Part shown: positions 2,547-20,573 of the stretch, in pieces
How the letters are laid out: every line of letters starts with the position of its first letter
Numbering within the stretch: the stretch's first letter is position 1
Source of the DNA: a virus
Virus record (IMG/VR): IMGVR_UViG_3300022756_000013
Span: 1-20,750 of that record
DNA length: 20,750 nucleotides
Strand: one strand, 5' to 3'
Translations under genes and position numbers: made by a program
Notes under the pieces: generated by a model
What the model saw: only the letters and a program-made list of their open reading frames with translations
Told to the model about the DNA's origin: nothing
The model's database searches: none

Positions 2547-2603
2547 CGCCGTGAACCAGATGGCGGATCGGGCCTTGGCGTGACTCTTTGTTCACCCCGA
2601 CCC

Positions 2604-2608
2604 GGAGG
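2604..2608 (+). promoter_or_regulatory. Ribosome binding site that decides the capsid start
   Basis: GGAGG ends six bases before the ATG at 2615. It favours that start over an in-frame TTG at 2588, which has no such site. Confidence 0.75.
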
Positions 2609-2614
2609 CCCATC

Positions 2615-4468
2615 ATGGCAACCATCTCGCGCCGGTCCAGCCGGACGCTCATCACTCTCGCCACGTGCTACGCCGACCAGGCGGACGACGCACTGGTCAT
2701 TCCCGAAGACCTGACGACGCTCACCGACGACGAGGTCGCGGCCCTTGCCGCCCGCGCCGACGAGGCGTTCGACACGATCTACGGCGACGGCACCGCCGCG
2801 CTCAGCGACGCCGACTACGCCACGCTCGGTGACCTCACCACCGGCATCGAAGCGCTCGCCGCCGAGCAGGCCCGCCGCGAGGAAGCCGCGAACGAGCGGC
2901 GTGAAGCCGCCGCCGCGCTTGCCGCCCGCGCCCGCCCCGCGATGTCCACCGAGTCCACCCCTGACGCCGGAGACAGCGGCGACGAGGAGGACGAGGACAC
3001 CGACGAGGACGACGAGGACGCCGACGACGAGGATGCGGACGACAGCGCCGACGCTCCCGCCGACGAAGCCGCCGAGGTCGTCACCGCCGCAGGCACCACA
3101 CAGCCGCGAGGCCGTCTGGCGATCAACCTCCGCTCCGCGAACCGCAACGCGCCGAAGCGCCAGCGCCAGCCGCAGACCGCCGACCGCTCGATGCGCGACG
3201 TGGCCTACGCGACAAGCGACGCGCTCGGCTACGCGGACCACGCCGGACTCGACTGGCTCGACGCGGGCAGGATGCTCGACCGCCGCATCGGCTCGTTCTC
3301 GCTCGGCCAGTACCAGGCCGCGCAGGCACGGGGTCAGCACATTCGCGAACAGCACAGCCTCATGGCGTTCAAGCGGGAGACTCCGAAGGAACTCCTCGTC
3401 GCGAGCACCGGCCCCGAGGCCATGATGAACGCGATGAACCGGGCCGTCGATGTGACCCGCCTGCCGGGCGGCGCACTCACCGCCGCTGGCTGGTGCGCCC
3501 CTTCCGACACGCTCTACGACCTCTGCTCGAACGCGAGCCGGGACGGCATCATCAGCCTCCCCGAAGTCGGCGTCCAGCGGGGCGGCATCAACGTGCCGGT
3601 GAACCCGACGTTCGCGGAACTGTACTCGCAGATCGGCTTCCACTTCACCGAGGAAGATGCCATCGCGGGCAACTGGGCACCGGGCGCGAACCCGGGCGAC
3701 CCGAACATCGCGGGCGACAAGCCCTGCTACGAGATTGAGTGCCCGGTCTGGGAGGACCACCGCCTTGAGGGCGACGGCCTCTGCATCGTCGCCGATCTGC
3801 TCACCGTTCGCGGCTACCCGGAGATGCTTGCCTGGGTCACGCAGAACGCGCTCATCGCGCACGACCACAAGGTCAGCGCGGGCAAGATCGCGAAGATCGT
3901 CGCCGGGTCCACCCCGATCACGATGACCACGGACACGGTGGGCACGACCGCCCCCCTGCTCGCGGCCATCGAGTTGCAGGTGGAGCACTACCGCTACACC
4001 CAGCGGCTCCCGCGCACGACCACACTCGAAGCGGTGTTCCCGTACTGGATTCGCGGTGCGATCCGGCAGGATCTGTCCGTCCGGCTCGGCCTCGCTGAGT
4101 TCGACGTGACCGACGCCCGCATCGACGCCTGGTTCCGGTCGCGCGGTGTGGCCCCGCAGTACGTGTACGACTGGCAGGCGCTCGACATCAACCCGCTCGA
4201 CACGTTCAAGACGTGGCCGAGCACGGTTGACTTCCTGCTCTACCAGGCGGGCACGTGGGTCGCGGGCGTGGATGACATCATCACGCTCGACACGCTCTAC
4301 GACTCCACCCTGCTCGGCCAGAACAAGTTCCTGGCCCTGTTCACGGAGGAGGCGTGGCTCGTCGCCAAGCGGTGCATCGACTCCCGGGTCATCACCGTGC
4401 CGGTCCACTCGGACGGCTCCACGCACGCGGGCGTCCTGCTCGACGCCGACCTCTCGCCCTCGGCGTGA
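2615..4468 (+). CDS. Major capsid protein, HK97-fold type, with fused scaffold-like N-terminus
   Basis: The 617-residue protein forms the capsid shell. The N-terminal third (about 1-175) looks like a scaffold or delta domain. It has helical Ala/Glu/Arg-rich stretches near 65-110, then a highly acidic, Asp/Glu-dominated segment at about 120-155. A basic patch (about 165-185) follows. The remaining 400 residues carry the shell domain: an E-loop-like region with RGGINVPVNPTF, and a C-terminal part with TTLEAVFPYWIRGAIR, FLLYQAGTWVAGVDDIITLDTLYDS and EEAWLVAK. These resemble actinophage capsid proteins of the HK97 superfamily. HK97 coat protein itself is about 385 residues, so the extra N-terminus matches a built-in scaffold removed by the protease encoded upstream. 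The cleavage site is not visible with confidence. Placement after the protease, with its own likely promoter and a strong ribosome binding site, fits high expression. Confidence 0.82.
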   Translation: MATISRRSSRTLITLATCYADQADDALVIPEDLTTLTDDEVAALAARADEAFDTIYGDGTAALSDADYATLGDLTTGIEALAAEQARREEAANERREAAAALAARARPAMSTESTPDAGDSGDEEDEDTDEDDEDADDEDADDSADAPADEAAEVVTAAGTTQPRGRLAINLRSANRNAPKRQRQPQTADRSMRDVAYATSDALGYADHAGLDWLDAGRMLDRRIGSFSLGQYQAAQARGQHIREQHSLMAFKRETPKELLVASTGPEAMMNAMNRAVDVTRLPGGALTAAGWCAPSDTLYDLCSNASRDGIISLPEVGVQRGGINVPVNPTFAELYSQIGFHFTEEDAIAGNWAPGANPGDPNIAGDKPCYEIECPVWEDHRLEGDGLCIVADLLTVRGYPEMLAWVTQNALIAHDHKVSAGKIAKIVAGSTPITMTTDTVGTTAPLLAAIELQVEHYRYTQRLPRTTTLEAVFPYWIRGAIRQDLSVRLGLAEFDVTDARIDAWFRSRGVAPQYVYDWQALDINPLDTFKTWPSTVDFLLYQAGTWVAGVDDIITLDTLYDSTLLGQNKFLALFTEEAWLVAKRCIDSRVITVPVHSDGSTHAGVLLDADLSPSA

Positions 4469-5703: not shown

Positions 5704-6471
5704 ATGACCACGCATTGCTTCATTCCGCTCCTCGGCAAGAGGATGCGAGTAACCGAACTCGATTCCTGCGGGGTCATCCTCCCCGACGCGGAGCAGTTGT
5801 CCACCGATGGCTTCATCACGGTCAACCTGTCCAGCGAGGTCGAGGACGGCACCGAAATCATCGTGAAGAAGGCGTCCGGCGCGCTGTGCGTCAATGAGCG
5901 GCAGGCGTCGTCCTTCAAGCGGTTCAATGTCGAGATGGAGTTCTGTGGCGTGAACCCCTCGCTCCTGGGCATCGTGTCGAACGCGGAGCCTTACGAGGAC
6001 TACGCGGGGGACATCGCGGGCTTCACGGTCGGGGAGGGCGAACTGGCGAAGTGGTTCGCGCTGGAACTCTGGCTCGGCATGTCCGGCAACGTCTGCGCAC
6101 CCGGCGCTGAGGAAGCATCGGGCTACATGCTCCTGCCCTTCGTCGTCGGCGGCGTGCTCGGTGACATCGCGATTGACGGTGAGAACGCTGTCACGTTCTC
6201 GCTGACAGGCGCAGTCACCCGAGGCGGCAACGGCTGGGGCGTCGGCCCGTACAACGTGGTCATGGACAACACCGTTCCGGCCACGCCGGTCCCTGCGGCG
6301 CTCCCGACACCGCTGGACCCGTTCGACCACCTGCTCCTGATCGACACCAGCGTCGCGCCGCCGCCCGAAGCGTGCGACCCGACCGCAGTCACCGGCTCGC
6401 CGCTGGCGCTGTCGGCGTCGGCCCGCAAGGCTACGCAGAAGGCATCTGACAAGGCCCTGGCGAACGCCTGA
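5704..6471 (+). CDS. Probable major tail (tube) protein
   Basis: The ATG at 5704 lies just after the previous stop and has GAGGAG (5691-5696) as ribosome binding site. It encodes 255 residues. The features are those of actinophage major tail proteins: an N-terminal Cys pair region (HCFIPLLGKRMRVTELDSCG), then DGFITVNLSSEVEDGTEIIVKKASG, FNVEMEFCGVNPSLL, a TGY-like loop (EASGYMLLPFVVGG), and the hallmark NAVTFSLTGAVTRGGNGWGVGPYNVV followed by a Pro-rich stretch and DHLLLIDTS. Subunits of this family stack as hexameric rings to form the tail tube. The last 30 residues are an Ala/Ser/Lys tail. No other candidate tube gene lies between the neck genes and the chaperones, which supports the call. 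The gene lies upstream of the neck genes rather than after them, which is unusual. Confidence 0.68.
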   Translation: MTTHCFIPLLGKRMRVTELDSCGVILPDAEQLSTDGFITVNLSSEVEDGTEIIVKKASGALCVNERQASSFKRFNVEMEFCGVNPSLLGIVSNAEPYEDYAGDIAGFTVGEGELAKWFALELWLGMSGNVCAPGAEEASGYMLLPFVVGGVLGDIAIDGENAVTFSLTGAVTRGGNGWGVGPYNVVMDNTVPATPVPAALPTPLDPFDHLLLIDTSVAPPPEACDPTAVTGSPLALSASARKATQKASDKALANA

Positions 6472-6491
6472 TCCAGAGAGGGGGCCGGGGA

Positions 6492-9400
6492 ATGGCTGAC
6501 CTCCCTGAGATTGGCTACGGAACTGTCACCGGCAGGTTCGTCGCTGGCATCCTCGACACCAACGACCCCGGAGCGGCACCCGACGCGGTGCCCCTCCGGG
6601 GAACGGTCGAGTTCTGGCCGACAGCGGACGTGGTGCGGGTGCCGACAGCGGCACCGCCGACGACGCTCCTGCCGCAGATGGTGTGCGCCGAACTGAACTG
6701 GCAGGGCGACCTGTACGAGAACGGCACCCCCGGCGTCAACCTGTTCTGCACCGACGACCCGGACGGCAACCCGGTCAACTGGCACTGGCGCGCCGTGTTC
6801 AAACTCACCTACCACGGGCGCGCTGTGCCGCGCGATCCGTTCTACTTCGCCCTGCCCTGCGGCTCGACCGTGGACCTGACGCTGGTCGCGCCGGTGGCTG
6901 TCGGGGACGACGGCATCATCATCATCCAGGGGCCGCAGGGCGAGCAAGGCCCGCAGGGTGAACCCGGCCAGGGGATCAAGGTGCAGGGCACCATCCCGCT
7001 CCCCGGCCCACCGACCTTCCCCGGCACTGACGACGGCGACTTCTGGATCGACCCGGACGGCAACGGCTGGGTGTGGGATGCCGCCGATGGCGTGTGGGTC
7101 GCCACTGGTCCGGTGCAGGGGCCTCCGGGTCCGCAGGGGCCTACGGGTATGCAGGGCGAGCAAGGCCCGCAGGGCGACCCGGGGGCAACCGGGCCAGCCG
7201 GGGCTGACAGCACCGTGCCGGGGCCTGTGGGTCCGGCAGGGCCTGCCGGGGCCGACAGCACTGTGCCCGGCCCCGAGGGGCCAGCAGGCCCCGCAGGCGC
7301 GGACTCCACGGTGCCGGGGCCTGTGGGTCCGGTCGGCCCGCAGGGAGAGCAAGGCATCCAGGGCGTCCAGGGTGCTCCCGGCGCGGATTCGACCGTCCCC
7401 GGACCCATCGGCCCGCAGGGTGAGAAGGGCGACCCCGGCGACACCGGCGCAACCGGCCCAGCCGGTGCTGACTCGACGGTTCCCGGTCCCGTAGGGCCAC
7501 AGGGACCGCAGGGTGAAATCGGCGCAACCGGCCCGGCAGGCGCAGACTCGACCGTGCCCGGGCCAGAGGGTCCAGCGGGGCCGCAGGGAGAGCAAGGCAT
7601 CCAGGGCGTCGGGGGTCCGGCAGGCCCTCCGGGGCCGCAGGGCGAAGGTCTGGACATCGACGGCACGCTGACGGTGCCCGGCCCGCCGACAGCCCCCGGC
7701 ACCAGTGAAGGCGAGTTCTGGATCGACTCGGATGGCATGGGCTGGGTCTGGGACGCCGACAGTGCGACGTGGATCGCAGTCCCGCTCGGCAGTAGCGGCG
7801 CGGGCCTCAAGACCTACGCCTCGCAGGCGGAACTCGACGCCGTGCGCGAGGCGGAAGTCGGCGTCCTCCACGTGGACAATCTCTCGCTGGCCTGGCCCCC
7901 GTTCACGGCGGCGGAACCGACCGTGTTCGCAGGCACCGGCCCCGCCGACATCGTGGTCACGTCCACCCTCTCGGATCACCCGGTCAACAGCGCGCCGCTG
8001 AACAACCGCTCGATGCTCCAACAGCACTTCTACATCGGCGACACCGCGACCCCTGGCGTTCTGCACGCCTCTCGCGTGCTGTTCTTCGACCGCACCACCG
8101 GCGCTGAACTATTCCGGTACGACTGGACAATCGTGCCCGCGATGCCGGTCGTCTACGCGCCGAACCACGTCCCGATCACGCTGGACACCAACGGCACCTG
8201 GGGCACGAAGGTCGCCAGCACGAGTGGTGCGGATAACAACACCCTGATGCTCCGCGACTCCGTAGGGCAGTCCGAGGTCTACGGCACGCCTCTCGGCGGC
8301 AACAGCATCGTCAACCGTACATACCTGGAACAGCAGTTCGACGCATTCCCGGCAGGCTCGACCATCCTCACCGGGCACGGCGCGCCCGCCGAGGACTTGG
8401 GCGACGCCGAGAACTTCTACATCGACCTGGACACCGGCGCGATCTACGGCCCGAAGCGGCCCGATCTGTACGGCGAGCCAGAACCGATCCTGACCGGCAC
8501 ACCCGAGTCGTTCCCGGTGCCGCTTGCGGGCACCCTGTACGCGGTCAAGTTCACCGCCGACGTGGCCGGGCGCGTGGCGGCGGTTCGGTTCTACATGCCG
8601 CCTGGCACTGCCAGCGTCATGCCGTCGTTCTACATCTGGGACGCGGCGGGCACGCAGATCGCCACAGGCTCCATCATCGGCTCCGAGGCGGGCGGGTGGG
8701 TCGAGGCCCCGTTCTACAGCGGCGGCTCCATCCTCACCGCTGACGCGGAGTACCGCATCGGCTACGTCGCGTACCCGTCCTCGAAGTACGCCTACTCTGC
8801 GGCGGGCGGCTTCCCGCAGTCCAGCGAGCACGTGACCCTGCTCGGCGCGATGACCGATGCCGCCGACCTGAGCGCGCCCGACATCGCGGACCCCGGCAAC
8901 TTCTGGGTGGAGCCGGTGTTCGAGCCACCCGTGACGACCCTGTGGCCGCTCGCCGTCGCGCCTGCCGAGGGCATCCCGCGCCTCGAACCGTGGTACGAGA
9001 TTGACAACGCGAACGAGCCGGGCGTCTACAAGGTCCGCGTTCCGAACCTCAAGAACCTGATCGGCAGTGTCGGGGACGCTTGGCCCGACCTCGCGCACAC
9101 CGGCCCCGCCGATCTGCTGGTCTACGTGTCCTGGAACGACAACACCGACCCGGCCTTCCCAGATCGCCGCAATGTCACACAGCAGTTCTGGGTGCCGGGT
9201 GCGCTCACCCCGAGCAAGCAACCCCTGATGATCCAGCGGATGAACTACCTGGACGAAGTGACAGGCAACCGCATCCTGACGATCAACGGCTGGCGGGTGG
9301 TGGACACCGGAAGCACCATCAAGGTCTACGCCTCGCTCGTCGCGGCAGAGGGCGACCGCACGCCTGCCATCGGCACTGTCAAGGTTCCCAACATGGCGGC

Positions 9401-10511
9401 GGCGTTCCCGAACCTTGCCGCTATCGGCTCCGGCGTGGAAGGCGCATTCGCAGGCGTCGGCTGGGGCAACCTCGTCATCACGACGACGATCACCGACTCA
9501 CCCACTGGCACCGACGACGGCACCTACCCCGACAAGTTCGTGCATCAGGAGTTCACTGTCGCGGACCTGTCTGACCCCGCCGCGCCGAAGTCACACCGCA
9601 TCGGGCGCGACTATCTCTGGAACCAGTCGCAGATCGGCTCCGGCGTGCTGTGGTCGCCCATCCAGGCCCCCGCATCGGGCGGCGGGGGCGGCGGCACGAA
9701 GGTCTACGCCGACATGGCCGAACTGGACGCGGTGCGCACCGGCGAGGTCGGCGTGCTTCACGTGGACGACATGGCGCTCGCCTTCCCCGCCCTGGCCGCG
9801 CTCAACACCACGTTCGCCGGGCACGGCCCCGGCGACCTTCTGGTCACCACGACGGTCGGTGACTACAGCGGTGATGTCGCGCCGTATGAGTTCTACTCCA
9901 CCGCCTTGCAGACGTTCGAGATTGCCAACCTGGCGAACGCCTACAGGCCCATGACCATCTGGCGCTCGATCAACTTCGACCGGCCTGGTGGGACACAGCC
10001 GGTCAGCATGGGCGCGTGGACCATCGCGGCAGAACCGCCGACCTTCCCCACGAACATGACGCAGGGCGACCTTGTGGTGGCCGCGAACGCCACCCGGTTC
10101 AACCGCCTCGTCGCGCCGACGACGGCGGGCCATGTGCTGTTGGCCGACCCGATCCAGTCGAACAAGATGCGCTGGGCCACGCCGATGCCCGTCGCGTACC
10201 AGTACGTGTTCGACTGGGGCGGGACGAACATCTTCGTTGACATCAACGTGGTGGGCAACCTGTACCTGCTCAGCCAGCCCGGTCCCATCACTATCGCGGT
10301 GCCGTCAACCGGCGTCCCCTCCGGCAAGCAGGTGGACTATGTGCAGATGAACGCGGTCGGCCCAGTGACGTTCGTGGCTGGCGAAGGCGCGGCCCTGCTG
10401 GCACCGGGTGGCAAGACGCAACTCGCGGGCCAGTATTCCAAGGCGAAACTGACAAAGGTGACCGGCAACGCCTGGCTCATCGAGGGCGATCTAGTCGTAC
10501 CCGTACCGTAG
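6492..10511 (+). CDS. Giant collagen-like fibre protein (tail or head fibre, probable host contact)
   Basis: The ATG at 6492 follows GAGAGGGGG (6475-6483) and gives 1339 residues. Order of parts: a beta-rich N-terminal anchor (about 1-140); a short Gly-X-Y run (145-157); a module with [15 protein letters not shown] (163-204); a collagen-like run (208-386) with six ADSTVPGP interruptions; a second copy of the module, [15 protein letters not shown] (388-433); repeat copy A (439-547); a [14 protein letters not shown] element (about 642-656); a DUF4082-like beta-sandwich (about 660-813); repeat copies B (833-938), C (942-1058) and D (1070-1183), with a poly-Gly linker before D; a fibre linker with [19 protein letters not shown]; and a C-terminal tip (1233-1339) reading [21 protein letters not shown], close to many phage fibre ends. 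Collagen-like runs usually trimerise. A receptor-binding fibre is likely. Whether it attaches to tail or head is open. Confidence 0.8.
7117..7650 (+). repeat. Collagen-like Gly-X-Y coding repeat with six ADSTVPGP units
   Basis: Within the fibre gene the sequence encodes repeated GPQG, GPAG and GEQG triplets. ADSTVPGP occurs six times, starting at 7203, 7251, 7299, 7383, 7467 and 7542. The spacing is 16, 16, 28, 28 and 25 codons. Each copy has a different codon spelling. Confidence 0.85.
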
Positions 10512-10533
10512 GACACAACAGAGGGAGCAGGGA

Positions 10534-10827
10534 ATGTCGTACAAGTCCGTGGCCGATATGGCCGAAAGTTACAGCCTGAACCGTCGCCTCACAGCGGGCG
10601 CGGCGAAGGAGTCGATTGACGAGCCGCAGGCGTGGGTGTCGGTCTACCGCTGGGAGATTGCCAGCCAGCCCGGCTGGGATACCGCGTGGGACTCCGCCGT
10701 CGCTGGCGAAGTGCCCGACCCCGGCTCAGACGAGGCCGTCATCACCGATGGCATGATCCTCGCGGGTGTGCAGGCGGTGCGCGCCGCGAACCCGGCCCCC
10801 ACAGCGGACGGTGAGCCGGTTCCTTGA
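10534..10827 (+). CDS. Small conserved actinophage protein of unknown function
   Basis: The ATG at 10534 is preceded by GAGGGAG (10521-10527) at good spacing and encodes 97 residues. The layout is familiar from actinophages: an N-terminal helix YKSVADMAESYSLNRRLTAGA, a central W-rich core with WVSVYRWEIASQPGWDTAWDSA, and an end reading DEAVITDGMILAGVQAV. Homologues that I recall are encoded beside fibre, capsid or tail genes and have no proven role. It follows the fibre gene directly (22 bases), so a fibre chaperone or a small structural component is a reasonable guess but no more. No membrane segment or signal peptide is seen. Confidence 0.68.
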   Translation: MSYKSVADMAESYSLNRRLTAGAAKESIDEPQAWVSVYRWEIASQPGWDTAWDSAVAGEVPDPGSDEAVITDGMILAGVQAVRAANPAPTADGEPVP

Positions 10828-10860
10828 ACTGCCGCCGCCCCTGACTGAGAGGATCAGCCC

Positions 10861-11679
10861 ATGAGCCACGCGCCGTGCTACTGGCCGGTGGACTACTCCA
10901 CCTGCAACGAGTGCGAGGCGCTGACGAGCCTGGACCCGGAGGAGCGGGCCAAGTTCGAGCAGATCGCCTCGGACATGATGTGGGCGTGGTCCGACCGGCT
11001 GTTCGGTGTGTGCGAGGTCGTCATCCGGCCCTGCCGGAACGACTGCGGCGGCGTCGGCCACACCCCGACGTTCTGGGGGCGGGGGCCTTACGGCGGCGCG
11101 GAGCGGGCATGGACGCCGGTGCTCATCGACGGCGTGATGCACAACATGGGGTGTGGCTGTGCGGGGGCCTGCTCCTGCCCGCAGGAAGGGCCGACATCGC
11201 TCAGGCTCCCCGGCCCGGTGCAGGCGGTCACCCGCGTCAGCGTGGACGGTCACGTGGTGCCGCCCACGGCGTACCGCGTGATGTACTCGCGGCTCCTGGT
11301 GCGCGTGGACGGCGGCGTCTGGCCGAAGTGCCAAGACCTGCTGGCCGAGGCCGACAAGCCCAACACCTTCGAGGTCGCCTACCGCAAGGGCGTCCCGGTG
11401 CCGGTCGGCGGGCAGATGGCGACTGGCGTACTGGCGTGCGAGATGGCGAAGGCGTACTGCGGTGACGAAACCTGCAAACTGCCCCAGCGCATCCAGACGA
11501 TCACCCGGCAGGGCATGACCATCGGCTTCCAGGACTCCTTCGAGGACTTGAAGCAAGGCGGCACCGGCATCTGGGCCATCGACTCGTGGATCGCCAGCAT
11601 CACGATGCCCCGGGCGTCGGCGTCCGTGCGTTCGGTGGACATTCCTGTGGCCGGGAGCACGACGCGCTATGGACACTGA
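10861..11679 (+). CDS. Head-to-tail connector (adaptor) protein, Cys-rich
   Basis: The 272-residue protein matches the actinophage head-tail connector that binds below the portal. It starts with CYWPVDYSTCNECEAL. A helical segment follows (ERAKFEQIASDMMWAWSDRLFGVCEVVIRPC). Next comes a Cys-rich loop with NMGCGCAGACSC, then LPGPVQAVTRVSVDGHVVPPTAYRV and LLVRVDGGVWPKCQDL, the most conserved part of the family. The C-terminal half has a helix (GVLACEMAKAYCG) and ends in a beta-rich tail. Fourteen Cys residues are unusually many and suggest bound metal or disulphides. The ribosome binding site AGAGGA (10848-10853) precedes the ATG. The next gene starts 11 bases before this gene's stop, consistent with an ordered neck operon. 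Confidence 0.75.
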   Translation: MSHAPCYWPVDYSTCNECEALTSLDPEERAKFEQIASDMMWAWSDRLFGVCEVVIRPCRNDCGGVGHTPTFWGRGPYGGAERAWTPVLIDGVMHNMGCGCAGACSCPQEGPTSLRLPGPVQAVTRVSVDGHVVPPTAYRVMYSRLLVRVDGGVWPKCQDLLAEADKPNTFEVAYRKGVPVPVGGQMATGVLACEMAKAYCGDETCKLPQRIQTITRQGMTIGFQDSFEDLKQGGTGIWAIDSWIASITMPRASASVRSVDIPVAGSTTRYGH

Positions 11680-13245: not shown

Positions 13246-13301
13246 TCGTAGCGACATGCTGGCAGTAGGGCCGATGTCATCCCGTAGGGGGGGTGTCGTC
13301 C

Positions 13302-15767
13302 GTGGCCGTGAACAGTGTCGGTGAAGCCGCTGTTGACATCGTCGCGGACGCGAAGAACTTCGAGAAAGACCTGACGAAGCAGGTCGATACCGCCACGAAG
13401 GCCGCTGAGCCAGCCGCCGAGAAGGGCGGCACCGGCATCGGCAACGCCCTCGGGCGCGGCCTCATCACCACCGGCAAACTCGTGGGCGCGGGGCTTGCCG
13501 CCGCGCTGGGCGCATCGCTCGTCGCGGGGTTCAACCGGCTCAAGGTCATCGACCAGGCCGAAGCGAAGTTGCTGGGCCTGGGCAACAGCGCCGAAGAAGT
13601 CGTCGGGATCATGGATCAGGCGCTCAAGTCGGTGGAGGGCACCGCGTTCGGCCTCGGTGATGCCGCCGACCTGGCGGCGCGGTTCATGGCCGCAGGCGTC
13701 GAGTCCGGCAAGGACTTGCAGTTGGCCCTCGACGCGACGACGGATGCCGCCGCAGTCACCGGCGTCAGCCTCGCCGAAATGGGCGACATCATGGCGGACC
13801 TTGCCGCCGATGGCGACCTGACTGCCGACTCGATCAACCGCCTCGCTGACCGGGGCATCGACGCCCTCGACCAACTCTCCGACGCCTACGGCATCACCCG
13901 CGACGAAGCCGAGCGCATGGTCAGCGACGGCGAAATCTCATTCGAGGAGTTCGCCCAGGCGCTCGAAAAGAACATCGGCACTGCGAGCGAGCGTTCGGCT
14001 GACACCTTCACCGGCGCAATGAAGAACATCGGTGCCGCAATGGCCCGGTTCGGCGCGACGATTCTCAAGCCGGTATTCGAGGGCATCATTGCCCTGGCCC
14101 CTACGGTCATCTCCGCGATCAATGCCTTCGCCAAGGCGTTCGAGAAGATATGGCTGGAAATCGGCCCCGGCGTCCAGCAGGCGTTCGAGAACATAGCGGC
14201 GGCGCTCGGCAGGATCGACTGGGCCGCAGTAGGCGACGCCGTGGCGAACATGGCGGCAGTGATCTTGGCGGCGATCCGGGGGGTTCTGCCGGTCATCCGG
14301 CAACTGGTGGACATCTTCGGCCCGCCGCTCCAACTGGCTATCAAGGCTGTGACGGCGGCGTTGAACGCGATGCCGTGGGAAACGATCATCGCTGTTATCA
14401 ACCGCCTCGCGCCGATTGTCCTGGCGGCGGTCGCGGCGTTCAACGGCTTCAAGAAAGTCCAGGGCATCGTCAACGGCGTGAGCAAGGCGTCGAAGTTGCT
14501 CGGGTCCGCCGTCATCGGCATGGGTCAGGGGTTCAAGGGCGCGACGGTGCCGATCATTGCGAACACGACCGCAACGAAGGCGAACACCGCCGCCCTGAAA
14601 ATCCACAACATCGTGAGCAAGACTGCGGCCACCGTGACTAAGGCGTTCGGTGCCGCGATGAAGTTCCTGACCGGCCCCATCGGCCTCATCATCACCGGCA
14701 TCACCCTCCTGGTCGGCGCGCTGATCTGGTTCTTCACCCAGACCGAGGTCGGCATCCAGATGTGGAGCGCCTTCGTCAACTGGCTCAAGACGACGTGGGA
14801 AGCGTTCATGGCGTGGTTCCTGCCGATTCTGCAAGCCTTCGTGGAGTTCTGGACCGCCGTGTGGTCGCAGATCGTGGAGTACGCCACCGCGATCTGGGAG
14901 GCGTTCATCGGGTGGTTCCAACCGAAACTCGATGCCTTCCTGGCTGTGTGGACGCAGATATGGGAGGCCGTCAAGTTGATCTTCCAGGTGGTCTGGGACT
15001 TCCTGGTCGCCTTCGTCGTGCCGATTGTCGAAGTGATTGTCTCGTTCATAATCAACCGCTTCCAAGCGATGTTCGAGTTCTGGCAGAAGATATGGGACGC
15101 GGTGAAGGCGGTTATCGAGGTCGTCTGGAACATCATCACGTCGATCATCGAACTTGCCGTGGCGCTCATCATCGCGATATTCACCGGCGACTTCTCGACC
15201 GTCGTGGACATAATCAACCGCATCTGGGAGGACGTGAAGGCGGGCACGAAACGCATCTGGGACAACATCATCGAGTGGATCAGGGAGATACCGCAGAAGA
15301 TCAAGGACATCTTCTCCGGTGCGCGCGACTGGCTCGTGGACGCCGGTGCGAACGTGCTCCGTGGATTCTGGGATGGCCTCAAGTCCATCTGGGGCAACAT
15401 CGAGTCCTGGTTCAACGACAAGATCGGCGGCTTGAAGTCGTCCGCGCAGGGCCTCCTCGGTGAGCACTCGCCCTCAACGGTGTTCCGCGACATCGGTGAG
15501 AACGTCGCGCTCGGCTTCCTGGAAGGCATCGAGGGGTTGTCGAAGGAGGTCGAGGCGTCGGCCAACCTGTTCGCACAGCCTGCGCACGCGCTGACGAGCG
15601 GCCCCGGGGCGATTACTGGCAGGGCATCGAGCACGGCGGGGCCGACGACGGTGAGCGGCGCGCAGACGACATTCGCGGAGGGTGCAGTGCAGGTGAACGG
15701 CGTCGGTGACCCGTACAAGGCGGCGCTGTTGGCCGTCAATGGAATCGCGGAGAGGGTGGCGCTCTGA
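13302..15767 (+). CDS. Tape measure protein
   Basis: This protein sets tail length and threads through the tail tube. I prefer the GTG at 13302 (821 residues). AGGGGGGG (13286-13293) then sits at good spacing, whereas for the alternative GTG at 13293 the G-run would overlap the start. The N-terminal domain (about 80-250) has the conserved tape measure pattern AEAKLLGLGNSAEEVVGIMD, RFMAAGVESGKDLQLALDA, ADSINRLADRGIDALDQL, GEISFEEFAQAL. A hydrophobic helix lies near 455-478 (GPIGLIITGITLLVGALIWFF). Then a Trp-rich helical region (about 477-706) has about 22 Trp, often paired and spaced 7-18 residues apart. It ends with the typical LLGEHSPSTVFRDIGENVALGF segment and a Ser/Thr/Gly tail. At about 0.15 nm per residue the tail would be roughly 120 nm. 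The TGATG overlap couples it to the next gene. Confidence 0.85.
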   Translation: MAVNSVGEAAVDIVADAKNFEKDLTKQVDTATKAAEPAAEKGGTGIGNALGRGLITTGKLVGAGLAAALGASLVAGFNRLKVIDQAEAKLLGLGNSAEEVVGIMDQALKSVEGTAFGLGDAADLAARFMAAGVESGKDLQLALDATTDAAAVTGVSLAEMGDIMADLAADGDLTADSINRLADRGIDALDQLSDAYGITRDEAERMVSDGEISFEEFAQALEKNIGTASERSADTFTGAMKNIGAAMARFGATILKPVFEGIIALAPTVISAINAFAKAFEKIWLEIGPGVQQAFENIAAALGRIDWAAVGDAVANMAAVILAAIRGVLPVIRQLVDIFGPPLQLAIKAVTAALNAMPWETIIAVINRLAPIVLAAVAAFNGFKKVQGIVNGVSKASKLLGSAVIGMGQGFKGATVPIIANTTATKANTAALKIHNIVSKTAATVTKAFGAAMKFLTGPIGLIITGITLLVGALIWFFTQTEVGIQMWSAFVNWLKTTWEAFMAWFLPILQAFVEFWTAVWSQIVEYATAIWEAFIGWFQPKLDAFLAVWTQIWEAVKLIFQVVWDFLVAFVVPIVEVIVSFIINRFQAMFEFWQKIWDAVKAVIEVVWNIITSIIELAVALIIAIFTGDFSTVVDIINRIWEDVKAGTKRIWDNIIEWIREIPQKIKDIFSGARDWLVDAGANVLRGFWDGLKSIWGNIESWFNDKIGGLKSSAQGLLGEHSPSTVFRDIGENVALGFLEGIEGLSKEVEASANLFAQPAHALTSGPGAITGRASSTAGPTTVSGAQTTFAEGAVQVNGVGDPYKAALLAVNGIAERVAL

Positions 15768-18316
15768 TGGCATTCGAGGAGTGGCTGGCTCTCGGCGGCA
15801 ATGAGATTCTGAACAACGCTCGCACGGTCGGCTACGCCCGCACGGCCAACTGCCCGATGTCCTGGTTCAAGTCGCAACCGTGCGACACCCTGCTCGCCGC
15901 GACGCTGATCGGTGCGTTCGTCCACGAGGACCGCGACCCCGAGCAGATGGCCGGGGCCGACTACCGCGCGACGGCGATCCAGGGTGCCCCCTGGTACGAC
16001 CCGGTGCTCCCCGATGTCTCCGCGCGGTTCTACGGCGCGTTCGGCCTCGGCGTGTACGGCATCGAGGACTCCACCCGCGAAGCCAACGTGACGCAGGGCC
16101 TCGCGGACGGCGGCGTCATCGGGCGCGTGCGCAAGGCCCCGCGCCAGGTGCGCGTCGTGGCCCTGCTCGCCGGTGAGGGGCAGGACGCGCTGGAATACGG
16201 CATGGCCTGGCTGAACGCGGCGCTGGACCCCAACGCCTGCGGCCAGCACGGCGACGCCTGCGGCACGGCTGACCTGGCATTCTTCTCGACCTGCCCGCCC
16301 GCCCGCGCGCAGGTGCCGTCCTACTCGGAACCGGAACTCGTCGCCACCAACCTCAACCTGAACCCCTCGATGGAAACGCCGGGAGGGGTCATCGAACTCC
16401 GACGCAACCTGTCGCGGAACCCGAGGATGCAGACGACCACCGGGTGGGGCGGGAACGCGGGGGCGATCCTCACCGGGACCGAGAACGGTCTGAAACTGCA
16501 CTACATGGACGGCCAGCCGTCCGGCACGCTCATGTTCAACCAAGCGCAGGCGCACTGGGTCGGCATCAGCGGCAACGAGCGCGGCGTGGCGTCGATGGAC
16601 ATTGAAGTCCCGCCCGGCTACCCGGCAGTCACGCTCTACCTCAGCGTCGAAATGCGCGACGGCGGCGGGCAGTATCCCGGCGAAAGCGTGACGATCCAGC
16701 CTGGCGAGGTCAAGCGGCTCTACAGCGGCGTCGGCGTTCCCGGCCCGGCATCAGTGTTCCGCATCCTGGTCTACGCGGGTGCGCAGGTCGCGGGGAGCAC
16801 CGAGTTCTACGCCCGCAACGCGCTCATGGAGCGGCGCTCCAATCACCTGCCGTACTTCGACGGCACGACGGAGGATTACACCACCGGCCCGTTCACCTAC
16901 GCATGGGCTGGCGTCGCGGATGAAAGCGAGAGCACGCAGTCGGCACCGACCGTCAAGAACTACAGCGGGTCCGAGTTGGCCTACGTGTACCAGACGCACT
17001 CCCCGGATGCCCCGGCATCGCGAGGACAGTACGCCGTTCGCGCGGTGTCGGCAGGATCGCGGGGCGACGTGCGGGTGGGCGGCGTGACGTTCGCACCGGG
17101 CCAGATGTACACCGTCGAAGCCGACCTCTACATTCCCAAGCCGCACATCTCGCCCGACGACTCCGCCACAAGCCGACAGCGCAGGATCGTGGTGTACATC
17201 GGCGGGATGCCCACCGGCACCGTAGAAGTGTTCAGCGAGCAGGCCCCGAACACGGTGGGTTGGCATCACCTTGTCCACACGTTCGAGGTTCCCGCTGAGA
17301 GCACCGGGGCGATCCTGGGCCTCGGCTCTGCCGGTTCGGCGCAGGACACCTTCTTCGAGTCTGTCTGGGACGCGGTTTCCATCGTCACGGGCACGCAGTA
17401 CCCCGTTGGCGGCTACTTCGACGGTGACCGCTCCGACACTGAAACCGAGGTCTATTCCTGGACCGGCACCGCGCACGACTCAACCTCGACTGCGCACACG
17501 ATCCGCTTCCTGGGCTACGAGCCGGTGCCGAATGAGGACTATCGGCTTGAACTGAACAAGGTGCGTCGCTACCTGCACGACGTGGGCGCGGTCAGCGGGC
17601 CGCTGATCCAGGCGCAGTTCCAGAGCGGCCCACACTGGGCGTATCAGGTCGAGTACACGCTGGTCGCCGCGAACCCCTACGTCTACGGCGTGCGGCGCGA
17701 GATTGACCTGCCGCCGCGCCTGCCCACGGTCGTCGCGGACATTCCCTACAACCTCGTCACGCGCCCCAGCGCCGAACTGATCAACGCTACGACCGCTGTC
17801 GTCCAGACCAACTACGCGATCAACCCGAGTGCCGAGGTAGACGCGGGCGACTGGAACAAGACGCAGGGCGGTGCGATCCCCAGCGCCGATGTCGTCGTGG
17901 AGCGCACCACCGAACTGTTCGTGGTGGGCACTGCGGGCATCAAGGCGGTGTTCACGGCGGCGGCGACCGGCGCGGATGGCAACTTTGGCGCAGGGCAACT
18001 CGTTCCCTTGCCGGGCATCACCCCGACCACGCGGTACTCGGTGAACCTGTGGGCGTCGGGTTCGGTCGAGTCCGGCACCGCTGTCCTCGGCACCATCGAC
18101 TACTACGCCTACTGGCAGGACGCGGCGGCAACCACGCTCCGCAGTGACCTCCTCGGCACCCTGCCCGCAAGCGGCGGTGCCGAGGTAGAGAACTCGATCC
18201 TCCCGCCAGCGGGCACGGCGCAGGTGCTCGTCCGGGCGAAGCAGAACGTGACCAGTTGGAATGCGGGCGCGAAGGTCCGGCTCTACGTTGACGCGCTCGC
18301 CGTGACGAAGCCGTGA
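15767..18316 (+). CDS. Minor tail protein, Dit-like, with inserted carbohydrate-binding-like modules
   Basis: The ATG at 15767 overlaps the tape measure stop, and the product has 849 residues. The first gene after the tape measure usually encodes the distal tail protein. Here the N-terminus (about 1-180, with ALGGNEILNNARTVGYARTANCP and RKAPRQVRVVALLAGEGQDALEYGMAWL) and a later block (about 580-650, LNKVRRYLHDVGAVSGPLI and WAYQVEYTLVAANPYVYG) look like two halves of one Dit-like domain. Between them lie two jelly-roll-like modules, each ended by a YFDG unit (PYFDGTTEDYTTGPFTYAW at about 362, GYFDGDRSDTETEVYSW at about 549). A third jelly-roll-like module with NPSAEVDAGDW fills the C-terminus (about 690-849). 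This fits an 'evolved' Dit that helps bind host wall sugars. Ligands are not predictable. Confidence 0.75.
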   Translation: MAFEEWLALGGNEILNNARTVGYARTANCPMSWFKSQPCDTLLAATLIGAFVHEDRDPEQMAGADYRATAIQGAPWYDPVLPDVSARFYGAFGLGVYGIEDSTREANVTQGLADGGVIGRVRKAPRQVRVVALLAGEGQDALEYGMAWLNAALDPNACGQHGDACGTADLAFFSTCPPARAQVPSYSEPELVATNLNLNPSMETPGGVIELRRNLSRNPRMQTTTGWGGNAGAILTGTENGLKLHYMDGQPSGTLMFNQAQAHWVGISGNERGVASMDIEVPPGYPAVTLYLSVEMRDGGGQYPGESVTIQPGEVKRLYSGVGVPGPASVFRILVYAGAQVAGSTEFYARNALMERRSNHLPYFDGTTEDYTTGPFTYAWAGVADESESTQSAPTVKNYSGSELAYVYQTHSPDAPASRGQYAVRAVSAGSRGDVRVGGVTFAPGQMYTVEADLYIPKPHISPDDSATSRQRRIVVYIGGMPTGTVEVFSEQAPNTVGWHHLVHTFEVPAESTGAILGLGSAGSAQDTFFESVWDAVSIVTGTQYPVGGYFDGDRSDTETEVYSWTGTAHDSTSTAHTIRFLGYEPVPNEDYRLELNKVRRYLHDVGAVSGPLIQAQFQSGPHWAYQVEYTLVAANPYVYGVRREIDLPPRLPTVVADIPYNLVTRPSAELINATTAVVQTNYAINPSAEVDAGDWNKTQGGAIPSADVVVERTTELFVVGTAGIKAVFTAAATGADGNFGAGQLVPLPGITPTTRYSVNLWASGSVESGTAVLGTIDYYAYWQDAAATTLRSDLLGTLPASGGAEVENSILPPAGTAQVLVRAKQNVTSWNAGAKVRLYVDALAVTKP

Positions 18317-18326
18317 GGAGGGTGAC

Positions 18327-20573
18327 ATGAGCGGAGAGGCATTCGGCCTGACAGACCACGCGGTTCCCGCGACTGGCGATGAGCCGGTCGATCCGGTCGT
18401 CAACCCGCAGTCCGTCTACAGCGCGGCGTCGAACGGCCAACTGAACGGCTCGTACAACTACTGGGCACGCATCTATGTCCGGCAGGACGGCACCGACGCG
18501 GCGAACAACCGCACCCGGTTCTACTTCGAGGCCCGGCTGGAAATGTCGGGCGGCGGCGCATACAACAACGACCAGGACCAGTACTACGCGGTCTACGTCA
18601 ACGGCGGCCTTCACGCCAACGGCCACTTCCGGCTGGACTACAACAGCCGCCATAACACCAGCCGCGTCCTGCGCACCGGCACATTCTGGATGAGCCACGA
18701 CAGCAACGGCTACCGGGGCGGCTTCCCCACGGAACTGTGGATCGACACCGGGCACCCCTCGGTGGGCGATGGCTGGTCCGGGCAGGCGTGGGTGGACGCC
18801 GACCGCATCGCGAAGGTGCCCGGCAAGCCGCCGCGCCCCACGTTCCGCTCGGTGGGCACGACCGAAGTCCAGTACAACTTCCAGGGGCCGTCCGACAACG
18901 GCGGTTCCGCGATCCAGACGTACAACCACCAGAGCGCGACCAACACCGCCTTCACGGCGAACGTGAAGAACTGGGACGACCCCGGCAGTCCCGCCATTGC
19001 CAGCGACCTCATCCCCGGCACCGGGCACCACTTCCGCTTCCGCGCCCGCAACGCCATCGGCGCTGGCCCCTGGTCCGACACGCTCTCGCAGGTGACGATG
19101 CCTGCGGTCGCGCCGGGCTTCACCGTCGTGCCGAAGCCCACCGGGTCCGAGGCGGTGCTGACGTTCACGCCTCCTGGCGGTGTCAGCGGTGTCACGAAGT
19201 ACCGATGGGAGCGGCGCGTCAAGGGCCAGACCGCCGTGGCAACAGGCGACACCACGACGACGCCGCGCACCATCACGAACCTCGGCCCGGGCACCGTGTA
19301 CGAGTGGCGGGCAAGCGCGTTCGTGGATGCCTACCAGTCGCCGTGGACGGGCTGGATCACCGCGACCCAGCCGAACCCGAACACCGAGCCGGGCGTCTAC
19401 TTCGACGGCTCGACCGCCGACAAGACGGACGTGGACTACCGATGGAGCGGCACGGCAGGCAAGTCCACGTCAGAGGCGGTCGGCAAGCGCCCTGACGGCT
19501 GGACGGCCTCGTTCAGCAATGGGGCCGGGGGCGCATACTCGCGGGTCACCGACTCCGGGCTGACCGGCGACTACGCGGTGCGCGTCCAGATCACCGCCGA
19601 CGAGACAGCCGCAGGCGGGGTGACAGCGGGCATCGACCCGAACTTCCCCGCCGCCGTCATCGAGAACGGCACCTACTACGGCACCATCCACGTCAAGGTC
19701 AGCCGCGCTCAGCGGCTCGCGGCCTACCTCCGCTTCTACAACTCAAGCGGCGGGGCTATCGGCAACCCGGTGATGGGGGAATCGGAAGTCGTGGAGCCGG
19801 GGCGCTGGGCGCGGCTCATGGCCTCCGGCGTGGCACCGGCAGGCGCGGTCACCGCCATCGTCCGCGTGATGGACGTGGCCGGTGACGGCTGGGTTGCCTG
19901 GAAGGGCGGCGATGCGTTCCGCCTCGACGGCGCGGCGATCAACCTGGGCGAGCCGTACCCGTACTTCGACGGCGACACCCCCGATACCGGCGAGTGGGAC
20001 TTCCAGTGGGACGGCACCCCGCACGCCTCGGTGTCCAGCGCGAGTGCTCTCGAAGTGGCCTCCTACGACCCGCTGGCCGACCCCGACTGCCCACGCCCGC
20101 CTGCCCCTCCACGCCCGCCGACCATTGACGACATCTGCATCATCGACGTGGGCACGTGGTCGCGGTACTGGGCGGTCATCCCGGAAACCTACGTGACTGA
20201 GTGGCTGACGATGGTGCCGACCATCGCCCTGCACATCGGTGATGCCCCTGCGCGGCAGGTCCGCATCCGCATCTACCCCAACCCGCTCGACCAGGCCCCC
20301 GACGTGTTCATCGGTGACTGGATCAGCGAACAGATCGTGTCGTACCTGCCCGCGAACTCGTCCCTGCTCATTGACGGTGTGGATCAGCGGGTGTGGGCCG
20401 AAGTCGGCCTTGGCCCGCGCCTGCGCGCCGACCACCTTCTCTACGGCTCGAACGGCGAACCCGCGACCTGGCCGGTGCTGTCCTGCGGCCTCGGCTACCT
20501 CGCCTCCTTCGACGTTCCGGCAGACGCACCCCCGGTCGAGGTCGAGATTGCCCTGACCCAGCGGAGGAGTTGA
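18327..20573 (+). CDS. Minor tail protein with two fibronectin III domains and YFDG modules
   Basis: The ATG at 18327 follows GAGGAGG (18315-18321), overlapping the previous stop region. The 748-residue product has an N-terminal beta-sandwich domain (about 25-160, with YNYWARIYVRQDGTDAANN and RVLRTGTFWMSHDSNG) that resembles DUF859-type phage tail domains. Two fibronectin type III-like domains follow (about 170-260, ending FRFRARNAIGAGPWSD; about 263-350, ending YEWRASAFVDAYQSPWTGW). A jelly-roll-like module comes next, flanked by YFDG units (about 358 and 546). A Pro-rich hinge (CPRPPAPPRPPTIDD) leads to a C-terminal domain (about 605-748) with YLPANSSLLIDGVDQRVWAE and GEPATWPVLSCGLGYLASFDVPA. 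That end is typical of actinophage minor tail proteins and probably anchors the protein at the tail tip. Confidence 0.75.
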   Translation: MSGEAFGLTDHAVPATGDEPVDPVVNPQSVYSAASNGQLNGSYNYWARIYVRQDGTDAANNRTRFYFEARLEMSGGGAYNNDQDQYYAVYVNGGLHANGHFRLDYNSRHNTSRVLRTGTFWMSHDSNGYRGGFPTELWIDTGHPSVGDGWSGQAWVDADRIAKVPGKPPRPTFRSVGTTEVQYNFQGPSDNGGSAIQTYNHQSATNTAFTANVKNWDDPGSPAIASDLIPGTGHHFRFRARNAIGAGPWSDTLSQVTMPAVAPGFTVVPKPTGSEAVLTFTPPGGVSGVTKYRWERRVKGQTAVATGDTTTTPRTITNLGPGTVYEWRASAFVDAYQSPWTGWITATQPNPNTEPGVYFDGSTADKTDVDYRWSGTAGKSTSEAVGKRPDGWTASFSNGAGGAYSRVTDSGLTGDYAVRVQITADETAAGGVTAGIDPNFPAAVIENGTYYGTIHVKVSRAQRLAAYLRFYNSSGGAIGNPVMGESEVVEPGRWARLMASGVAPAGAVTAIVRVMDVAGDGWVAWKGGDAFRLDGAAINLGEPYPYFDGDTPDTGEWDFQWDGTPHASVSSASALEVASYDPLADPDCPRPPAPPRPPTIDDICIIDVGTWSRYWAVIPETYVTEWLTMVPTIALHIGDAPARQVRIRIYPNPLDQAPDVFIGDWISEQIVSYLPANSSLLIDGVDQRVWAEVGLGPRLRADHLLYGSNGEPATWPVLSCGLGYLASFDVPADAPPVEVEIALTQRRS

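Follow-up and report, generated by a model that had tools for sequence, protein, structure and literature searches.

Fibre domains help determine which host a phage can hold. Among them the knobs (pyocin_knob in CDD), known from the fibres of R-pyocins and of phages, are well described. In the R2 pyocin fibre the knobs stand in tandem, have arisen by duplication and are just 20% identical; their antiparallel sheet is buried in the trimer interface, with the loops outside (PMC6116203). gp45 of phi11 likewise carries tandem knob copies, and a knob-like domain of K1F binds sialic acid (PMC6116203). Knob structures include those of the R1 and R2 pyocin fibres and phage RBPs (PDB 6CL5, 6CL6, 6CT8) and of phi11 gp45 (5EFV). 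Here these are set beside a phage fibre in which one domain occurs four times behind a collagen-like shaft.

The fibre gene and its setting

The window, i.e. the whole stretch of 20,750 nucleotides analysed, covers part of the structural genes of an actinophage. It encodes a portal (735–2210), a major head protein (2588–4468) sharing up to 69% identity with its counterparts in Microbacterium phages, Margaery and MementoMori among them, a major tail protein (5704–6471), a head-tail adaptor (10861–11679) and a long ORF which by position and size looks like a tape measure (13293–15767). Two large proteins follow the probable tape measure (15767–20573), of which the first matches CBM_4_9 weakly (E 0.006, short of the cut-off) and the second contains fn3 domains. 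The fibre gene lies, together with an ORF of 97 residues (10534–10827), between the major tail protein and the adaptor.

The fibre or minor tail protein gene (6492–10511, plus strand, as are all parts named below) is an open frame of 1339 residues from ATG to stop, with PHROG tail and tail-fibre matches as well as collagen and DUF4082 matches. It encodes a collagen-shafted fibre of a soil phage, in which Gly-X-Y repeats separate an N-terminal module from the distal head. The N-terminal module (residues 1–135; 6492–6896) is a probable virion-attachment domain common to actinophage minor tail proteins (PHROG 15881, 9707, 11690), and was found by tblastn at 28–40% identity in 23 phage records from Arthrobacter, Microbacterium and Rhodococcus, mostly the first two. 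The collagen-like shaft comprises residues 136–432 (6897–7787; Pfam Collagen, E 1.2e-14). Within it, six G-A-D-S-T-V-P-G-P segments break the Gly-X-Y register, and in the translation an F-W-I-D-x-D-G-x-G-W-V-W-D segment occurs as a pair, one near each end.

Repeat copy 1 (residues 434–553; 7791–8150) stands directly behind the shaft. It is followed by a linker region (residues 554–684; 8151–8543) which weakly matches minor tail and hypothetical proteins, including those of Achromobacter and Sinorhizobium phages (tblastn, best E 0.02). The linker carries a G-H-G-A-P...F-Y-I-D...I-Y-G-P-K motif, in longer form G-H-G-A-P...F-Y-I-D-x-x-T-G-x-I-Y-G-P-K. A DUF4082-like domain had been predicted between the first copy and the others, and residues 685–776 (8544–8822) indeed match PF13313 with 39.1 bits against a Pfam cut-off of 28.4 (E 9e-10, profile positions 19–105 of 143). 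Copies 2 (residues 826–940; 8967–9311), 3 (941–1062; 9312–9677) and 4 (1064–1185; 9681–10046) come next, and the protein ends in a C-terminal fibre module (1186–1339; 10047–10508) with matches at the C-termini of other virion proteins (PHROG 18179, E 3e-9; 21510; 21978).

In the related Microbacterium phages Margaery, MementoMori and Jollipop the adaptor follows directly on the major tail protein, and no gene is present at the site occupied here by 6472–10860. At this site the present phage has the fibre gene as an additional module. Elsewhere its N-terminal module is joined to other distal parts: the minor tail protein of the Arthrobacter phage Thunderclap (4001–5626 of the fetched locus) combines it with a short collagen-like stub and a distal part that by eye looks like an SGNH hydrolase, and in Reynauld it precedes an alanine-rich, probably coiled region. 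Because the N-terminal module occurs with differing distal parts and the gene is absent from the three Microbacterium phages, the fibre appears to behave as an exchangeable adhesion module, with the repeats and DUF4082 probably forming an exchangeable distal block behind the collagen shaft. As a whole, it is presumably a modular, homotrimeric adhesion fibre.

Four copies of one domain

Four copies of one domain of about 115 residues are present in the fibre. The original prediction had placed them at 7806–8134, 8990–9305, 9316–9665 and 9697–10040 (residues 439–548, 833–938, 942–1058 and 1069–1183), which proved correct within a few residues. Profile HMMs built from three copies recovered the fourth in every case, with 77.8, 25.5, 50.4 and 73.4 bits for copies 1 to 4; the best of 2000 shuffles per held-out copy reached 7.1–12.6 bits (7.1 for copy 2, the most diverged). 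The four-copy profile found exactly four places in the window (7800–8144, 8973–9308, 9318–9671 and 9690–10037) and four in the 60-kb record of the same phage, with none elsewhere in either. In pairwise Smith-Waterman comparisons the pairs 1-2, 1-3, 1-4 and 3-4 scored above all 500 shuffles and pair 2-4 lay at the noise limit (1 of 500 shuffles), while the score of pair 2-3 arose from overlapping ends and therefore carries no evidential weight. Self-comparison of the fibre by hhalign, for which a single sequence is a very thin profile, reported no repeat. The pairwise shuffles and the leave-one-out HMMs together support the duplication within the fibre that had been proposed. A chance or compositional resemblance would have had some basis in a sequence rich in A, T, V and P, in which pair 2-4 alone is not significant, but each leave-one-out score is several-fold the best of 2000 composition-matched shuffles, which refutes this explanation and leaves it a negligible probability.

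Identities between the copies range from 19 to 44% and loop lengths differ. The highest identity (44%) is that of copies 1 and 4, which share 67% over the first 30 columns and 24–32% over the second half. Recent gene conversion between them was considered and rejected: the same codon is used at 32 of the 50 identical residues, only slightly above the fraction of 0.53 expected from codon usage, so that there is no sign of recency. The columns identical in all copies include the second-strand Val, Ala-x-Pro, and the Ala and Gly before the third strand, and further an Asp, a Pro, Gln-x-Phe, a Gly and the final Trp. The order of elements first described for the copies required correction at two points. 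No KxYA start is present in copy 2, where the VYKV taken for such a start aligns with the second strand (VGVLHV) rather than KVYA. Nor does Q-x-F form the last strand, as more strands come after it and end at the invariant Trp. At the aromatic-Pro step of copy 3, a C to A difference at window position 9407 (F972L) from IMGVR_UViG_3300028876_000014 is the sole difference in 7725 bases.

Relatives and predicted structure of the repeat

The same phage is represented in three metagenome records, namely the window and two further IMG/VR records, of which one is 60,386 bases long. Beyond this phage, no relatives of the repeat were found in Pfam, PHROGs, NCBIfam, the PDB, 50,697 phage records, IMG/VR or GTDB genomes. 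Each copy searched separately against Pfam, PHROGs and NCBIfam gave no match, in agreement with the earlier statement that no named family was known for it, and the copies themselves had no match to any binding or carbohydrate-recognition family. Scans of viruses and genomes with copy 1 and the stretch after it, with copy 4, with copies 2–4 joined and with the alignments A1, A5 and A6 returned the same phage only; tblastn of copies 1, 2 and 4 against phages and of copy 4 against plasmids gave nothing or weak matches. The profile search in other phages that had been suggested gave no relatives: the four-copy profile matched neither 23 phage genomes nor phage Motura (a weak BFVD match), and with all filters off it found nothing below E 0.6 in the translated phage loci fetched. 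Since pattern-based scans miss distant sequences, these results mean that there are no relatives at this sensitivity within the collections searched. Bacteriophytochrome matches were rejected as chance (about 30 residues, E 0.04–1.4). A Salmonella contig match of copy 2 was set aside as well; by eye it sits in an ordinary bacterial-looking enzyme ORF.

The segment Q-A-E-x-D-A-(L/V) at the start of the repeat is, by eye, similar to the stretch closing the minor tail protein of Reynauld, a protein that matches PF24243 (Phage_tail_C, a phage tail tip domain of 26 residues). However, the segment opens a longer domain in the repeat copies, whereas in Reynauld it ends the protein. The PF24243 HMM gave no match to the window at E ≤ 10, the Reynauld protein being matched as positive control.

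AlphaFold2 single-chain models were calculated for copies 4 (mean pLDDT 78.6, pTM 0.73) and 2 (73.7, 0.68), in both cases with an alignment of the same four copies (4 rows). Both models show a short helix, a strand, a Pro-containing loop with helical turns, and long strands leading to the invariant Trp; the two folds thus agree in element order, although this agreement is not independent, as both rest on the same four sequences. Neither outcome that was to refute the repeat occurred, as profile comparison recovers it and the two models agree. Modelled strands comprise residues 48–59, 69–78, 88–97, 104–107 and 111–113 in copy 4 and 51–60, 70–83, 89–99 and 105–116 in copy 2, and are read as antiparallel because of the short connections between them. 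The copies are accordingly predicted to have the build of a small globular alpha/beta domain. They had been described as binding or spacer domains; their location distal to the shaft and their predicted build fit bead or head domains, and the binding or spacer role itself is what we infer. A C1q/TNF-type jelly roll, considered because of the collagen shaft, was dropped since the models have a helix start and few long strands. As monomers from a 4-row alignment the models are weak Foldseek queries for an intertwined trimer; nothing below E 0.1 was returned for both against the PDB or for copy 4 against BFVD, and knob structures were absent among the 50 matches listed.

The layout of the repeat led us to suspect a pyocin-type knob. 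Searches with a knob consensus brought up R-pyocin fibres from the PDB (E 4e-4) and 709 phage records, which indicates that the consensus works; to the copies it gave no significant match. From those phage records 18 domains were fetched to build a knob profile of our own, which is not a curated model. With it, hmmsearch against the copies gave nothing above noise and hhalign a probability of 0.1%; in a profile-global test the copies scored within the decoys save a borderline copy 2, and the DUF4082 stretch scored equally high. Because these profile tests failed, membership of the copies in the knob family is unsupported at the sequence level. Genuine knobs do occur in tail proteins of actinophages; a protein of the Arthrobacter phage Breylor17, for example, matches the knob of the R2 pyocin (E 5.6e-5).

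Role of the copies and comparison with known fibres

Collagen is an obligate trimer, and the collagen shaft upstream of the copies therefore supports a trimeric fibre. The copies are likely trimeric head domains for host binding, and we infer for them trimerisation, knob-like packing and glycan binding. The model we put forward, an even call in our judgement, is that of a fibre with an anchor, a collagen shaft and a chain of globular domains, among which the four duplicated copies act as trimeric, knob-type, glycan-contacting head beads. They would have arisen from one alpha/beta domain of about 115 residues by duplication inside the gene. In each bead the helix-strand start would pack on an antiparallel meander that helps to hold the three chains together, while the variable loops (the Pro step and the DxP/Q-x-F step) would point outward and touch glycans on the surface of the host. 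With its diverged copies and DUF4082, one fibre could then have several points of contact along its length.

It is quite possible, if tentative, that the domain instead has a separate fold with no relation to pyocin knobs, and represents a family of fibre domains that the libraries do not yet contain. The failed knob profile tests and the lack of any match in Pfam, PHROGs, NCBIfam, PDB sequences, PDB and BFVD by Foldseek, the 50,697 phages, IMG/VR and GTDB genomes argue for it; yet the order of the predicted elements runs parallel to that published for knobs, and the Foldseek failure weighs little with monomeric models from a four-sequence alignment. More doubtful is that the copies are passive spacers which lengthen and stiffen the fibre, with binding left to DUF4082, the C-terminal module or both. 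Length is commonly built from repeated beads, same-domain copies flank DUF4082 and a conserved C-terminal module lies behind copy 4, but divergence to 19–44% identity and differing loop lengths exceed the need of identical spacers, even if divergence alone is no proof of binding. That the repeat is a previously undescribed fibre-head fold forming a four-bead multivalent adhesin, each copy reading a different surface glycan of the actinobacterial host, seems improbable.

The plan of anchor, trimeric shaft and duplicated head domains is well known, so that the gain is one more domain type and no new principle. The fibre is of ordinary design with an unfamiliar part, its copies probably being bead-like head domains that help in holding the host. 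A repeat unmatched in Pfam, PHROGs and NCBIfam and without recognisable relative in the phage records marks a gap in fibre annotation, and a chain with four diverged copies is a natural setting in which to test whether duplicated head domains broaden binding.

Compared with known systems, the fibre shares the N-terminal module and/or the collagen-like shaft with collagen-shafted actinophage minor tail proteins (PHROG 1806, 15881, 819), whereas the distal four repeats and DUF4082 were not found in any of these. From pyocin-type knobs the copies differ in giving no significant sequence or fold match, in having longer loops, and in a single invariant Trp close to the end, at a place where W-x-x-W is present in most knobs; the fibre here also has four copies with a DUF4082 domain between them. 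Knobs fold as an antiparallel sheet that has five or six strands and curved loops; the two models, of copies 4 and 2 on their 4-row alignment, show helix-strand-loop and three to five more strands. Common to both are a size of about 80–110 residues, diverged tandem copies from duplication, a position behind a rod or shaft (here the collagen shaft upstream of four copies, three of them consecutive), and, as predicted for the copies, the order of a helix or strand, loops and then antiparallel strands (PMC6116203). By this analogy, the published knob description would still be the best functional model for the copies.
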